A DNA stretch of 52,522 nt, from the NCBI GenBank assembly GCA_013204345.1, contig JABMOB010000005.1, positions 1 to 52,522 of the forward strand, in the 5' to 3' direction. The translations under genes and the position numbers were made by a program. The notes under the pieces were generated by a model. It ran no database searches. It saw nothing but the letters and a program-made list of their open reading frames with translations, and had not been told where the DNA came from. The DNA is from Parcubacteria group bacterium (GTDB lineage Bacteria; Patescibacteriota; Minisyncoccia; Phycocordibacterales; JABMOB01). Shown here piece by piece: positions 16,249 through 26,847 of the stretch; the first letter of the stretch is position 1; each line of letters opens with the position of its first letter.

Positions 16249-18054
16249 TTAATTAAATAAGTATAAATATTTTTCATACCCCTGGCTTTTCATCTCTTCT
16301 TTCGACACAAACAAGAGAGAAGCTGAGTTAGTGCAGAATCTTCGGCCACCTTCCTCAACCGGACCGTCATTAAATACATGTCCCACATGCCCAGCATCAC
16401 TTCGCACTTCGGTTCGAGTTGTAGACAATGAATTATCTGCATGAAGTGTTACAGAATCATCATCAATTGTTCTCCAGAAACTCGGCCAGCCTGTACCTGA
16501 GTCATACTTATGAGTACTCGAAAAGAGAGGCTTCTTGGTTACAATATCGACGTAGATTCCTTCTGCCTTATTGTCCCAGTATTTGTTTTTGAATGGAGAT
16601 TCGGTGCCATTCTCAGCCACGACATGATATGCGAGAGGATCAAGATTCTTGAGCATCTCAGCTATCTCTTCGTCAGTATAGTTATAATCTGTTTTAGTAC
16701 TTTTCTTCATAGAAGTTGTTTGTTCAGTTTCCAGAAATTTGATGGCCGCATCTTTTGCCCATGTCTCCTCGACAAAACCGGCTCTACCTGATCCTTTTTT
16801 ATAGCGCTCATAGTGATCAGATGCTTTCTTGTAATAATCTTGGTGATATTCTTCAGCCTTAAAGAAATTTGCAAATGATAATACTTCGGTTGCTATTGGC
16901 TTAGTAAAAAGCTTACTTTGCTCTAGACGCTTTTTAGAATCAAAGGCAGCTTCTTTTTGTGCGTCATCATGATAAAAGATAGCTGTAGTGTATTGGAAGC
17001 CTTTGTCCGCAAATTGACCCTCAGTACTTGTAGGATCAATATGTGACCAATAGATGTCTAGTATTTCCTCAGTAGAGATTAGTTTAGGATCGTATGTTAT
17101 CTGCACAGCTTCACGATGCTTAGTTGTACCCTTTGAAACTTTGAGATACGAAGCATCTTGTTCACTTCCACCTGCATAGCCAGAGACCGCATCTATGACT
17201 CCAGGGTTTTCTTGGAAGTATGCTTCGGTGCACCAGAAGCATCCTCCTGCTAAAGTAATTGTTTCGTAGCCCTCGACACTCGTACTAGTTTCTTTCATCG
17301 AAGATTCTTTTTTCATATCCTTTGGTGCAAACCTTTCTATCAAACTATCTTCAAGCTGTATGGTCGCACCATATCCTGAATCGAGAATCAGCGTCTCTAA
17401 TTTTTTATCGTAGCCGGTAAGAATGAGAATTCCGACAATTACAATCAGGACCCCGAATACTTGTTTTATTCTTCCTGTAGCTTGCATATGATCACTCACT
17501 TTGTTAATGATCCTTTGTCCAAAGTAAGCAATGAGGAGTAAAGCTAGGGCCAAACCGAATGTAAATCCGAGCAGATACACGAATCCGACAAAGAAGCTGG
17601 CGGGTAGAGTGGTGGCGATAATGAACAGATACGTCGGAGAGCATGTTGTAAATACAGGACCGAGAGCAAGACCGATTAGCATGTCTCCCTTGTAACTTTT
17701 CTTTTGATATCCAGCACCTACTGCTTTATTGCTCAATATGCTTAGCTTGGCAACAAACGGGACCTTGGTCCAAAGTGATGGAAATGCGATTGCAAAACCA
17801 ACCAAGATAATAACTACTCCCGAAAAGCTACTCCAAAATATCTGAGGAATAGATATAAATAAGGTTGTAGCTTTTAAAAGAAGAGTGAAGATGATTACGG
17901 AGACTGAGAGTGATCCGATCACCGTAATTGCTCGTCTTGATATTCTCTTTTCACCTGCTTCGGATGCCCCAATAACAATCGGCAGCAAGGGCAATATGCA
18001 AGGCGCTACGACCGTAAATACTCCTGCTAAGATTGCTATGAGGAAGAAAATCAT
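16249..18054 (-). CDS. CcdA/DsbD-like membrane domain fused to MsrA and MsrB
   Basis: N-terminal multi-TM with VVAPCILPLLPIVIGAS and GPVFTTCSPTYLFI; MsrA GGCFWCTEAYFQENPGV; MsrB YDSGTGWPSFWRTI..GHVFNDGPVEEGGRRFCTNSASLLF. Confidence 0.93.
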   Translation of the reverse strand: MIFFLIAILAGVFTVVAPCILPLLPIVIGASEAGEKRISRRAITVIGSLSVSVIIFTLLLKATTLFISIPQIFWSSFSGVVIILVGFAIAFPSLWTKVPFVAKLSILSNKAVGAGYQKKSYKGDMLIGLALGPVFTTCSPTYLFIIATTLPASFFVGFVYLLGFTFGLALALLLIAYFGQRIINKVSDHMQATGRIKQVFGVLIVIVGILILTGYDKKLETLILDSGYGATIQLEDSLIERFAPKDMKKESSMKETSTSVEGYETITLAGGCFWCTEAYFQENPGVIDAVSGYAGGSEQDASYLKVSKGTTKHREAVQITYDPKLISTEEILDIYWSHIDPTSTEGQFADKGFQYTTAIFYHDDAQKEAAFDSKKRLEQSKLFTKPIATEVLSFANFFKAEEYHQDYYKKASDHYERYKKGSGRAGFVEETWAKDAAIKFLETEQTTSMKKSTKTDYNYTDEEIAEMLKNLDPLAYHVVAENGTESPFKNKYWDNKAEGIYVDIVTKKPLFSSTHKYDSGTGWPSFWRTIDDDSVTLHADNSLSTTRTEVRSDAGHVGHVFNDGPVEEGGRRFCTNSASLLFVSKEEMKSQGYEKYLYLFN

Positions 18055-19329: not shown

Positions 19330-19510
19330 ACGTTTAGATGTTAGTGATTATATATTCCAAAGTTTGAAATGTAAAGTTGTCTTTACTTGTACATCGCCAT
19401 CTCCGCTTCAGTCGGCTGCGTAATTCCAAAGAAACCCTGCTTGATATTCGGTAGCCAAATATGCTCTTTGTTTGTCTTCCAAAAGGTTCCGATATCCCGT
19501 ACTATGTCGA

Positions 19511-19682
19511 GCAAATTTTAACGCCGAAAGGCGTTTTAAATTTGTGACGCAGAGGAAGCCAACAATTTGGCTTCTGTGTAGGGTTCGAAGCCTGTTTGAG
19601 CATTTTTTATGAATGAAATGAAATAAAAAATCCAAACAGGATACTGGTCATGTAATGACCGAAATTCTCTACCTGCGGAGCA
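19511..19682 (+). repeat. Structured dispersed repeat, copy 1
   Basis: Shares AATTTTAACGCCGAAAGGCGTTTTAAATTTG..GACGCAGAGGAAGCCAACAATTTGGCTT..GTAGG.TTCGAA and 3' CTACCTG.GGAGC with copy 2; contains several perfect hairpins. Confidence 0.85.
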
Positions 19683-19687
19683 ATCTA

Positions 19688-19715
19688 TTGACATATATTT
19701 TATCTTTGATATAGT
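19688..19715 (+). promoter_or_regulatory. Sigma70-type promoter for the small ORF at 19737
   Basis: TTGACA, 16-nt spacer, TATAGT, followed by AAAGGAG RBS and ATG. Confidence 0.65.
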
Positions 19716-19736
19716 ATAAACAGAAAGGAGATCATC

Positions 19737-19910
19737 ATGAAATACCTGAATACTGGTTTGATTACCTTCGGCATCCTTTGTGTCTTGGCTGTTTCTTTTA
19801 ATACGCCAAACCGAGAAGATGCTGAGCGAATCATGCTCAAGTATGGTCGTCAAATTCCAACGGCACCAATCAGTGGTACTATCATGTGGCATCTACAACA
19901 CGGTGACTAA
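19737..19910 (+). CDS. Small secreted/membrane-anchored orphan protein (57 aa)
   Basis: MKYLNTGLITFGILCVLAVSFNTPNREDAERIMLKYGRQIPTAPISGTIMWHLQHGD*; RBS AGAAAGGAGATC; promoter upstream and terminator downstream. Missed by the track because of its length. Confidence 0.7.
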   Translation: MKYLNTGLITFGILCVLAVSFNTPNREDAERIMLKYGRQIPTAPISGTIMWHLQHGD

Positions 19911-19923
19911 GCCGTCCCAGAGG

Positions 19924-19954
19924 AAACCAAATCCTTCGGAGGCGGTTTTCTTTT
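19924..19954 (+). terminator. Rho-independent terminator
   Basis: AAACC..tccttcgga..GGTTTtctttt after the small ORF. Confidence 0.6.
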
Positions 19955-19969
19955 GATATACTTTGTCTC

Positions 19970-20482
19970 ATGAAAGACTATAAAATCATAGCCCTAGGCT
20001 CTCAGTGTTCAGGAAAATCTGCAATTATTAAATATCTACAAGACAATACTGATTTTGTTTGTATTGACCACGATGAAGAAATAAAGAGCAGACATGATGG
20101 TAAATATCCTAAAGATCACGTTTATGTAAGTAACGAGGTTTTACCTTCAATTGAAGATTATGTTTTAGATTTACCAACCGTAATTTACAGTGCTAGTTTT
20201 TGGGGGTTAGACAAAGACGGAGTAATAAGTAATGAAAAGATTAACTTAGCAAAAGAGAAGGGTTTTAAACTTGTAAATTTAGTTACAGATAGAGATGTTT
20301 TAATTGATAGAAATAAAAAGAGAATGAGTGAAGGAAAAGCCGATGCTTCAGCAAGTTTTGATTGGTATCAACGTGTATATAAAAATATGGATGATTTAAG
20401 TCAATTTGATTTTAAAATTAATACTAACGGATCAATTGAAAATTCAGCTAAAAGCTTGCTTGCTTTTATAGAAAATATTTAA
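19970..20482 (+). CDS. P-loop kinase-like protein (shikimate/nucleotide kinase-like)
   Basis: Walker A IIALGSQCSGKSAIIKYL, then CIDHDEEI. Confidence 0.65.
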   Translation: MKDYKIIALGSQCSGKSAIIKYLQDNTDFVCIDHDEEIKSRHDGKYPKDHVYVSNEVLPSIEDYVLDLPTVIYSASFWGLDKDGVISNEKINLAKEKGFKLVNLVTDRDVLIDRNKKRMSEGKADASASFDWYQRVYKNMDDLSQFDFKINTNGSIENSAKSLLAFIENI

Positions 20483-20669
20483 TTTCTCTACTTCCGTTTC
20501 AATTTTCTACCAATTCAAAATCCTAAACTTGTCTAGAGGAAAGGATTGCAAAACAAATAAACCCAGCTCTATTCATCCCCCTAGCTCTGCTGCGGGGAAT
20601 TCTGCGAGTTGATTAAAAATCAATAATTCCATCAAACCCTAGCTAAATTTCGAAGAGTCTAGGTAAAAA

Positions 20670-22067
20670 TTAGAAAAAAGACAGGATGGTGACAACCACA
20701 AAAACCAAGAAGAGTAGCGACATTGAGACCAACATCAGGTTAGTCCACCAACCCGGCCTTAACTCTTTAGGAAGAAAACTATTATTTATCCAAAGAAGAA
20801 GTGGTGTATACAAAGCCATAGTAAAACCTCCAAGAACTCCAGAAATTGTCAGCAGAACCAAAGGCTCCCTTAAAGGAACCAGAACCATTCCAATCAAAAC
20901 TACTATGACAAATATGGAATAGTACAAAGTGCTAGCAGAATAATTTTTTAGTAAACCAAAAACTTTCTGCCACTTTCCATGTTTTGAATGTATCGCCAAA
21001 GTGTCAGTTAGAATACGAGACAAAGCATCTAAAACAGTCCAGGTCACAGAAAACAACATTAAGAAGGTCATTAGTAGAAATATCTTTTCTCCGATAATTC
21101 CCCAAGCTCCACCAAATATTTCAGCCTGAACACTAGCTACCTGAATTCCCTCCGGAATAACTCCAAGGGGTCCTAGAACAACAAAGGCGTTGATACCGAG
21201 CATTAACAACGTCAAAATTCCCAAAATCAAAAAGGCAATTTGCTGATCTATCTGCACATACCTCATCCAACCTCTCCAACGAGAAAGATTTTCTTCTGTT
21301 GGTTCAAAAGTTTCTCCTAATTCATAGTCAGCCACCTGCTTTCCGGTAATCGGATTAACAATCTTGGGAGAATACAAAGCCATACCTAAACCCTTATCCT
21401 TGTACCAAAGAGAAACACATAGGTTTAAGAGACCACCAGCTCCAGCAAAAACAACAGCTGTAAATAAAACTCTGTAATCAATAGTCTGGGTAAAATCTGG
21501 AAATTTAAATAACTCTGTTATTAAAGTCTTATCAGCAAAAAGATATAAATTAAAAATTGTAACAATCACCAATAGTGTAAAAAAGAGAGGAACTATTATA
21601 AAAAGAGTTCTTTCCAAAAGTGTATAAGCTCTTTTACCTAAAAAGGTAATGACTAACAATAATCCCAGTACCACCCAAGCCCAAACTATATGTGTACCAA
21701 AACCAAAAAGAGAAACTAAGATAGTTCCAATAGAGCTTGCCCAACCAGGCCAGATATATAAAAGAACAGCTGCTGGAATCCAGAAGAATGGAATCCAGGT
21801 TAAATACCGAGCAGAAGTTGTAAAGAAGCTCTCACCAGTAGCCAGAGCCAGCCTGGCGACCTCCCTATTCAAAATATATTGAAAATAGAAACCTAAAACC
21901 CCTAGAAAAATAAAAGAGAGACCATATTTCAAGATAACATGTGGCCACAAAATCAATTCCCCGGTTCCAATAGCAAGCCCAGTGACCACAATACCAACAC
22001 CGATGGCCTTCTTCCAATGAACCGGTTCTGGTAACTCTTTTATTGGTAGATCAGGAAATTGACTCAT
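20670..22067 (-). CDS. Nramp-related divalent metal transporter
   Basis: About 11 hydrophobic segments; N-terminal 'GVGIVVTGLAIGTGELILWPHVILKYGLSFIFLGVLG' like Nramp TM1. Confidence 0.75.
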   Translation of the reverse strand: MSQFPDLPIKELPEPVHWKKAIGVGIVVTGLAIGTGELILWPHVILKYGLSFIFLGVLGFYFQYILNREVARLALATGESFFTTSARYLTWIPFFWIPAAVLLYIWPGWASSIGTILVSLFGFGTHIVWAWVVLGLLLVITFLGKRAYTLLERTLFIIVPLFFTLLVIVTIFNLYLFADKTLITELFKFPDFTQTIDYRVLFTAVVFAGAGGLLNLCVSLWYKDKGLGMALYSPKIVNPITGKQVADYELGETFEPTEENLSRWRGWMRYVQIDQQIAFLILGILTLLMLGINAFVVLGPLGVIPEGIQVASVQAEIFGGAWGIIGEKIFLLMTFLMLFSVTWTVLDALSRILTDTLAIHSKHGKWQKVFGLLKNYSASTLYYSIFVIVVLIGMVLVPLREPLVLLTISGVLGGFTMALYTPLLLWINNSFLPKELRPGWWTNLMLVSMSLLFLVFVVVTILSFF

Positions 22068-22070
22068 TTA

Positions 22071-22268
22071 TCATTTACTTTCTTTAATAATACCATCACG
22101 AACAACACTGTCTAGAAAAAACGCAATCGAGAAAGCTATTACCCATAGGAATCCAAAAACAACAAAACCTGGAACAAGCCAACTAGTTAATATAATTAAC
22201 AAAACACTTATCACTAGAATAAATAAATCTGATGTAAAAAAAGTAATTGGTAACATTAGAATAATCAA
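22071..22268 (-). CDS. Small membrane protein upstream of the Nramp-like gene
   Basis: 65 aa, hydrophobic, 3-nt gap to next gene. Confidence 0.5.
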   Translation of the reverse strand: MIILMLPITFFTSDLFILVISVLLIILTSWLVPGFVVFGFLWVIAFSIAFFLDSVVRDGIIKESK

Positions 22269-22405
22269 AGCATTATCAGTCTCTCAACTATTATTTGATT
22301 GCATAAAATATTTAATTAATCGTTAACTGCGACCTTACTGTATCACAACATGGCCATTTTTAATATTCACTCACACCAAAGTTTTAGACTTGTCCACGAG
22401 TGGAA

Positions 22406-22575
22406 GCGAATTTTAACGCCGAAAGGCGTTTTAAATTTGCGACGCAGAGGAAGCCAACAATTTGGCTTACGTGTAGGATTCGAAAGATTTTCTATGTTTA
22501 CGATCCTGAGCTTATCGAAGGAGAGTAAACCTAAAACCCTCGTGCCGCGGGCAAGAAACTCCTACCTGTGGAGCC
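22406..22575 (+). repeat. Structured dispersed repeat, copy 2
   Basis: Same conserved 5' block and 3' block as 19511-19682, different centre. Confidence 0.85.
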
Positions 22576-25699: not shown

Positions 25700-26680
25700 T
25701 TATTTATCCCAAGAAAAACCATTGCCAAAGTGTCCGTATTTAGCCGTTTCTCTAAATTGAGGATTTTTTAGCTTTAAGTATTTTATTATTGCACTCGGCC
25801 TAAGATCATATCCTTTGATCTCTTCTTGCTTACCATCTATTGTTACGACAGCCATAAGTGGTTTTGCGACACCGATAGCATAAGCTATATGTGAATATAC
25901 TTCTTTTGCTTTTCTTTTTTTCAAATAATCAGCCGCGATTTTTCTGGCAATATAAGCACCACTTCTATCTACTTTTGTTGCGTCTTTACCAGAAAAACAA
26001 CCTCCTCCGAGTGGAATATTTGGACCATAATTATCAACAGCCAGTTTTCTGCCGGTAAGTCCTGTGTCAGCATTGAACCCTCCAATTGACCATTCTCCGT
26101 TAGGATTTTTTAACCACACATCTTTAATTTTTAAACCACAAACTAAAAGTGGCTCTATTTCTTTTTTAACAACTTTTACTAAAGCAGATTTCTTACTATA
26201 ATCAGCGTCGCATACAGACGTAAGTATAGAAATTACCTTTCCATTCTCTGTAGTCACCTGTGCCTTGCCATCCTTTTTCCCCATAGCTTTTGTTAGTTTT
26301 CTTGCCAATACAACTTCCAAGGGGAGAAGCTCTGGAGTCTCGCTAGTCGCATACCCGACCATTATTCCCTGATCCCCAGCACCATCATTATCTACACCAT
26401 GTTCAATTTCCAGACTTTGTTCAACTACGTTTACAGTAACACCGATATTTTCTTCATATCCACAATCTTTATAGATCTCTTGGGCAATCTTCCTTATATT
26501 GATATGAGCTTTTGTTGTTAACTCACCTGTCACAGTAATAATGCCGTGACCACCCAATACTTCAATCGCCGACCTTGTATTTGGGTCTTGTTTCAGACAC
26601 GCGTCCAAGACGGCGTCTGATATTTGATCACACACCTTGTCTGGGTGTGCGATAGAAACAGATTCAGCTGTTTTTATCAT
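25700..26680 (-). CDS. metK: S-adenosylmethionine synthetase (compact, 326 aa)
   Basis: ESVSIAHPDKVCDQISDAVLDACL, GAGDQGIMVGYAT, GGGCFSGKDATKVDRSGAYIARKIA, YGHFG. Confidence 0.96.
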   Translation of the reverse strand: MIKTAESVSIAHPDKVCDQISDAVLDACLKQDPNTRSAIEVLGGHGIITVTGELTTKAHINIRKIAQEIYKDCGYEENIGVTVNVVEQSLEIEHGVDNDGAGDQGIMVGYATSETPELLPLEVVLARKLTKAMGKKDGKAQVTTENGKVISILTSVCDADYSKKSALVKVVKKEIEPLLVCGLKIKDVWLKNPNGEWSIGGFNADTGLTGRKLAVDNYGPNIPLGGGCFSGKDATKVDRSGAYIARKIAADYLKKRKAKEVYSHIAYAIGVAKPLMAVVTIDGKQEEIKGYDLRPSAIIKYLKLKNPQFRETAKYGHFGNGFSWDK

Positions 26681-26737: not shown

Positions 26738-26847
26738 ATTTTATCTTTCCCTTTCGGGTTTGGATTTAGCACCTTTCTTAATCACTTAAGGGGTTGCTGG
26801 GAGGTTATCGAGCCAAAACTCTACCTACCACTCTTGATAAACGTATG
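26738..26847 (-). promoter_or_regulatory. SAM-I (S-box) riboswitch upstream of metK
   Basis: Minus strand: GTTTATCAAGAGTGGTAGGTAGAGTTTTGGCTCGATAACCTCCCAGCAACCCC...AAGGTGCTAAATCCAAACCCGAAAGGGAAAGATAAAAT; matches S-box hallmarks (TTATCAAGAG, GCAACC, AAGGTGCTAAATCC, GAAAGATAA). Confidence 0.95.

Follow-up and report, generated by a model that had tools for sequence, protein, structure and literature searches.

The 52,522-nt window analysed here, positions 1 to 52,522 of contig JABMOB010000005.1 from a Parcubacteria group bacterium, carries two copies of a structured repeat. They are orphan members of a family, not described before, of small and probably mobile DNA elements that form hairpins and sit behind tRNA genes in one order of ultra-small bacteria. 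The copies share a direct repeat (19510–19589 and 22405–22484; 80 nt, 94% identical), and in both a left block is followed by a folded core, which differs between the two, and by related 3' blocks. The repeated 5' block reported in the initial annotation is real, as are the stems listed there (AACGCC-GAAA-GGCGTT, AAGCC..GGCTT, CTGTTTG..CAAACAG, GTCAT-GTA-ATGAC, GTTTAC..GTAAAC and TGCC..GGCA), and the shared 3' ends CTACCTG[C/T]GGAGC are present in both copies; open reading frames (ORFs) called over the copies are without support and, as that annotation held, best treated as spurious. Both copies are far more strongly folded than shuffled sequences, with z scores of -6.3 (copy 1) and -3.8 (copy 2) as RNA and -8.3 and -3.3 as DNA. 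The DNA fold runs through one and the same series in each copy: a terminator-like hairpin, a short outer stem (CGCAG paired with CTGCG in copy 1), hairpin P0, P1, and the core hairpins (Table 1). At the P2 tip of copy 2 (22504–22522) lies the palindrome TCCTGAGCTTATCGAAGGA, of a type common in bacterial intergenic DNA.

Table 1. Parts of the two repeat copies in the window.
Feature	Position	Strand	Basis and remarks
Copy 1, terminator-like hairpin (X)	19512–19544	+	RNA and DNA folds; place matches tRNA terminators; follows the tRNA in tRNA-linked copies
Copy 1, acceptor-complement arm A1	19546–19552	+	CGCAG pairs with CTGCG 19673–19677 (folds); A1 tracks the neighbouring tRNA in relatives
Copy 1, hairpin P0 (GAAGCC..GGCTTC), at the tRNA 65/66 boundary	19555–19574	+	Folds
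Copy 1, arm A2, 12 nt, GTAGGGTTCGAA	19578–19589	+	Complement of tRNA T-loop and T-stem (nt 65–54)
Copy 1, core hairpin P2 (class A)	19591–19640	+	Folds, class A alignment
Copy 1, ATACTG joint, hairpin P3 with GTA loop, CGA joint	19641–19662	+	Alignment, DNA fold
Copy 1, tRNA 3' end copy TTCTCTACCTGCGGAGC	19665–19681	+	Fits tRNA-Asn, 5' acceptor TCCGCAG; covariance-model match 19578–19681
Copy 2, terminator-like hairpin	22407–22439	+	Repeat comparison, RNA and DNA folds
Copy 2, acceptor-complement arm A1	22441–22447	+	DNA fold
Copy 2, hairpin P0 (AAGCC..GGCTT)	22451–22468	+	RNA and DNA folds
Copy 2, arm A2, 12 nt, GTAGGATTCGAA	22473–22484	+	Repeat comparison, arm analysis
Copy 2, class B core (GTTTAC/GTAAAC and TGCC/GGCA hairpins)	22485–22553	+	RNA and DNA folds
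Copy 2, tRNA 3' end copy ACTCCTACCTGTGGAGC	22558–22574	+	Sequence

The 3' block of the repeats corresponds to a tRNA 3' end, and the motif GTAGG(G/A)TTCGAA, initially called T-loop-like, is indeed linked to tRNA but in the opposite orientation, being the reverse complement of the T-loop and the 3' strand of the T-stem. The ends of both copies fit a tRNA-Asn with the 5' acceptor TCCGCAG, which the genome's own tRNA-Asn has. ARAGORN and the Rfam tRNA model find no tRNA or tmRNA gene anywhere in the window, and Rfam 15, searched at the gathering threshold and for weak matches to E 10, gives no credible match on the elements, RtT included. A decayed tRNA-Asn to the left of copy 1 was considered and could not be demonstrated: the register of the best alignment is right, but 117 of 300 shuffles score equally, and copy 2 has nothing of the kind.

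The source genome was read in stretches and searched, and the two cores, initially described as new and swapped, belong instead to two classes that recur elsewhere in it. The core of copy 1 is that of a unit starting directly behind tRNA-Gln on contig C23, a unit that does not share the ends of copy 1; its ends are the complement of the tRNA-Gln T-arm and a copy of the tRNA-Gln 3' end. A second unit follows it, and the core of copy 2 resembles both this unit and one behind tRNA-Val(tac). A survey of the tRNA genes shows that many have an element 30–80 nt downstream, with the same layout and its own ends in each case, behind Lys, Leu, Met, Trp, Arg, Val, Ile and others. The ~110–170-nt elements are arranged, from the tRNA onwards, as terminator hairpin, complement of tRNA nt 72–66, hairpin P0, complement of nt 65–54, a three-way-junction core (P2/P3), and a second copy of tRNA nt 57–73. 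Inverted (nt 72–54) and sense (nt 57–73) tRNA copies thus flank a conserved P0 and P2/P3 core. The earlier picture of conserved ends around a replaceable centre is nearly reversed, the core being homologous across the family and the ends varying with the tRNA; those in the window look conserved because both copies carry arms of the same tRNA type.

A covariance model was built from seven class A units of the source genome, aligned without gaps (some loop and joint bases were trimmed, making this a model rather than a full alignment). Standard pairs make up 93.7% of P1, P2 and P3 in the alignment, compared with 41–53% in slid controls, and double-sided changes occur in 12 of 18 pairs (2–5 in slid controls). 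The model matches the source genome 13 times at E values up to 1, and across the order it matches 78 of 197 genomes at E 0.001, many of those searched being drafts, with up to 15 copies per genome; because P1 belonged to the search model, the counts are too low for elements that lack a tail copy. A sample of the phylum yields matches in five of 287 genomes, all from the same order and none from the sampled genomes of other orders, which indicates that chance matches to the model are rare. In the GTDB collection an exact 22-nt pattern from the core occurs in 35 stretches. Nearly all belong to records with Patescibacteria names (for example Nomurabacteria, Zambryskibacteria and Vogelbacteria) and a few to records titled just uncultured bacterium; the pattern is absent from the viral contigs searched. 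The sole match named as another phylum is a Richelia intracellularis record (L297), and may reflect chance or contamination. No gene-bearing autonomous version was seen among 29 P3 motifs in the limited sample of stretches scanned, and open-access papers gave no description of such elements.

The covariance model represents class A, and classes B, C and D were seen besides. We also note a second core class without P0 (GGGGTCGGG..CCCGTGGAGG), at L049, L059 and L080 in the source genome and at L211 and L222 in a relative (G101), with the same layout: a complement of about tRNA nt 53–67, the core, and a tRNA tail copy. The element of tRNA-Tyr (L033) has yet another core.

The correspondence between arms and neighbouring tRNAs, a relation not included in the search model, was examined in 128 elements, 118 from relatives and 10 from the source genome. 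A same-strand tRNA lies at most 420 nt upstream of 99 of these, mostly 16–81 nt away, and 30 anticodons are represented. The 12-nt arm is the exact complement of nt 54–65 of its own tRNA in 67 of 98 cases and has one mismatch (11/12) in 24; its first nine nucleotides match the own tRNA at 8.5/9 positions and others at 5.9/9. It tracks T-loop variants (TTCAACT is answered by AGTTGAA), and where nt 61–65 and the 5' T-stem strand (nt 49–53) differ it is the complement of the former. The tail, which repeats the 3' end of the adjacent tRNA in direct orientation, matches the own tRNA at 14.9/17 positions and others at 9.3/17; it is decayed in a fair share of copies, and in many elements it deviates at nt 57–60 while the arm still fits the tRNA. 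The idea that the original 3' end was displaced to become this downstream tail, because the tail more often bears CCA (14/81 vs 7/81), was dropped as too weak.

P0 is present in 109 of the 118 elements from relatives, and the arm upstream of it complements nt 66–72 (5.5/7 with the own tRNA, 4.1/7 with others). Where this upstream arm is clear (47 elements), P0 and its linkers span 20–26 nt, mostly 22 or 25 (31 in one case), and pairing extends past nt 72 into the flank by a mean of 4.4 nt, and by up to 26 nt without mismatch. Palindromes formed by the tRNA end and flank reach 33 bp without imperfection, and a terminator hairpin usually lies between tRNA and element. The complementarity beyond nt 72 argues that the template of the upstream arm was the gene with its flank and not a mature tRNA.

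Copies turn over between relatives, and cores cross tRNA types within a genome while the arms match the new neighbour. Core similarity between elements of different anticodons is 0.693 in the same genome and 0.623 between genomes (permutation p 0.0005), and a shared anticodon across genomes adds none (p 0.15). In one relative (G038) the Asn, Lys and Trp elements have cores 91–93% identical and arms differing at 2–4 of 12 positions, each fitting its own tRNA with at most one mismatch; the Arg and Met elements of another (G041) show the same pattern of near-identical cores and differing, matched arms. Occupancy differs between two genomes of one genus: 14 of 32 tRNAs (G101) and five of 32 are followed by an arm, with no type in common. 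Their tRNA-Ile(gat) is nearly identical, yet one genome has two units behind it and the other lacks any. Tandem units occur, and at L211 arm-less class A modules, in which P0 leads directly to P2/P3, are nested in a class C element. An old vertical linkage with gene conversion of the cores fits the core and occupancy data less well than movement does, and the disjoint occupancy within a genus speaks against it. Arg(tcg)/Gly(gcc) in G023 was rejected as a strict empty site for insufficient synteny and is kept as presence/absence only. The many copies, the covarying stems and the within-genus differences in copy number and position bear out the initial annotation in calling this a mobile or functional element and not chance similarity; it had taken a lack of further copies, or copies with neither compensatory pairing in the core nor insertion polymorphism, as signs to the contrary, and neither outcome was observed. 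Its interpretation overall is partly supported.

On balance we think it slightly more likely than not that the repeats are orphans of mobile DNA elements of ~110–170 nt that insert by tRNA genes and whose arms are written from the target. The tRNA is left intact by the insertion, and the element is probably selfish. The moving form would be a folded single strand of DNA, its arms written from the target tRNA on insertion: the copying strand would fold back at the terminator hairpin of the tRNA, return through the tRNA 3' end, take up the core and resume forward. The product would be an inverted triplication around the core, consisting of the tRNA (S), an inverted copy (A) and a direct copy (S'). 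More tentatively, such an element may have no fixed ends at all, its arms being built by copying the target tRNA in both directions, in a target-templated DNA transposition.

Much the same anatomy could arise from a structured RNA, a pseudo-tRNA or tRNA antisense acting on tRNA processing, charging or decay, which would mimic the acceptor and T-stem of the neighbouring tRNA, with P0 in place of the D and anticodon arms and the core in place of the T-loop, and whose arms selection would keep matched. P0 lies at the very point from which the D and anticodon arms of a tRNA depart (the 65/66 boundary), the element is on the same strand as the tRNA, covariation is strong, and the arm's fit is kept even where the element's own tail deviates. 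The pairing statistics are less favourable to it. In the T-stems of neighbouring tRNAs G-U and A-C appositions number 23 and 2 of 440, as expected for RNA; in P3 they number 7 and 4 of 590, and in P0, whose stems were picked for at least L-1 Watson-Crick pairs and are biased towards perfect pairing (P3 is less affected), 3 and 2 of 747, although the sequence varies freely in both. The G-U deficit relative to T-stems is significant (P3 p 2e-4, P0 p 6e-8); compensatory changes are found in the helices, but P0 and P3 lack the G-U tolerance of RNA, with no clear preference for G-U over A-C. Between arm and tRNA there are 11 G-U and 9 A-C in 1152 positions, and such symmetric mismatches point to DNA or templated copying. 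A structured RNA is also at odds with the terminator hairpin that usually parts tRNA from element, with the turnover and disjoint occupancy within one genus (18 of 32 G101 tRNAs are without an arm), and with the decay of the tail copy. An RNA gene, which covariation alone would suggest, is ranked second because P0 and P3 are nearly without G-U pairs, and we consider it unlikely; strict Watson-Crick pairing together with a DNA-templated palindrome past the mature tRNA end favours a DNA step.

The strict pairing of the arms would also suit a recombination site made of a folded single strand, of the kind known from integron attC and CTX phage attP. A single-stranded circle of ~150 nt, in which arm and tail would pair to imitate the duplex end of the tRNA gene, would be inserted there by a tyrosine recombinase (the host Xer), and P0, which simple fold-back copying leaves aside, would block exchange of the second strand. 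The make-up of the insert agrees with the opening of a circle within nt 57–73, tandem arrays occur, and one Xer-like recombinase is found in nearly every genome. This near-universality is uninformative about a link to the elements, and two genomes (G064 and G184) have elements and no recombinase match; the rewriting of arms when a core moves to another tRNA type is left unaccounted for, and we regard such a site as rather improbable. Its likeness to attC and attP lies in the folded single strand as recombination site, the strict Watson-Crick stems and the arrays; the elements differ in their tRNA-tail target, in arms that follow it, and in a core unlike attC, and an integron integrase is not shown.

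Movement of REP-type palindromes (repetitive extragenic palindromes) by a RAYT/Y1 transposase seems very unlikely. Hairpin DNA is the substrate of such enzymes, and Y1_Tnp is somewhat commoner in genomes with elements (55 of 78) than in those without (60 of 119; p 0.008), but it has no match in 23 of the 78, among them the complete G010, which has 13 copies and no candidate; G031 weakens the case too. Known RAYT guides are ~4 nt, as against arms of 12 and 7 nt here. Searches for a reverse transcriptase found none in G010 or in G014 (15 copies), and both RAYT (Y1) and reverse transcriptase, absent from copy-rich genomes, were dropped as required movers. REP and bacterial interspersed mosaic elements (BIME) resemble the present ones as short intergenic hairpin DNA in many copies with guide-like bases beside the hairpin; their ends are fixed, and they are not known to target tRNA genes with 12- and 7-nt arms.

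There may be no element at all, replication slipping at tRNA terminator palindromes to give inverted triplications whose stems are kept perfect by quasi-palindrome correction. The long perfect palindromes of tRNA end and flank and the strand-symmetric mismatches agree with this, but slippage alone cannot yield, across 78 genomes, both a conserved P0 and a core of common ancestry whose joints are fixed (RYACYG, the GTA loop, GA), nor does it sit well with the absence of the element from sampled genomes of other orders; of the explanations weighed it is the least probable.

Several points weigh against target-written mobile DNA as well. No enzyme, circular form or single-stranded form has been observed, a strain-level empty site was not obtained, and the window copies have no detectable adjoining tRNA. 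Simple fold-back copying does not explain P0 between two target-copied arms, the G-U content of P1 is not significantly different from that of T-stems, conservation of the joints and of the GTA loop could point to an RNA, and gene conversion confined to the core could mimic part of the core-by-genome signal.

Three other systems invite comparison. In Escherichia coli the 178-bp tyrT repeats encoding rtT RNA (RF00391) follow a tRNA gene in tandem, and every repeat includes a copy of that tRNA's 3' end. Similar length, tandem arrangement and tRNA 3' end copy make this a resemblance, not homology: the repeats occupy one enterobacterial locus and are not known to have an inverted tRNA arm, whereas the present elements occur with 30 anticodons in many genomes, carry re-matched arms, and give no RtT match even at E 10. 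IS110 bridge RNA is likewise a folded element of ~170 nt with programmable guides for both target strands, but here the arms overlap one target stretch instead of taking left and right halves, and pair in a DNA-like manner. Integrative elements that target tRNA genes also insert at the 3' end with a direct repeat of nt 57–73, sometimes beyond; the elements described here are ~110–170 nt, show no integrase or cargo, and have an extra inverted copy of the target.

Other observations were made near tRNA genes and in the window. Small ORFs that look GIY-YIG-like by eye adjoin tRNA genes at L003 (1096–1341), at L075 after tRNA-Glu(ttc), and at L036 after tRNA-Gln(ttg); the first lies between a partial 5' copy of tRNA-Gln and the full gene, and the palindrome CCTGGCCGGCCAAAGCCCGTCCGCGGGCAGG interrupts the partial copy at about 1034–1110. 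RNase P class A at L049 (18653–19395, minus strand) scores just 37 bits over 743 nt, possibly reflecting a large insertion or a divergent RNA. The window contains an S-adenosylmethionine (SAM) riboswitch above threshold (26738–26843, minus strand) upstream of a metK-like ORF (25700–26680, minus strand), and a single ORF (16249–18054, minus strand) whose product, by eye, resembles a membrane thiol-disulfide protein joined to MsrA and MsrB domains.

The ends of a transposon are normally fixed, and the duplications that it takes from its target are short; the small genomes of these bacteria hold few known mobile elements. The ends of the elements described here track the target over ~20 nt in both orientations, at 30 tRNA anticodon types, and tRNA annotators should expect inserted tail copies in these genomes. 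Were the elements RNAs instead, many tRNAs of one genome would each have a tRNA-specific RNA partner. If the arms are rewritten at insertion, this would be a novel way of moving DNA, and, if target-templated, one core could occupy any tRNA gene and always be matched to it.
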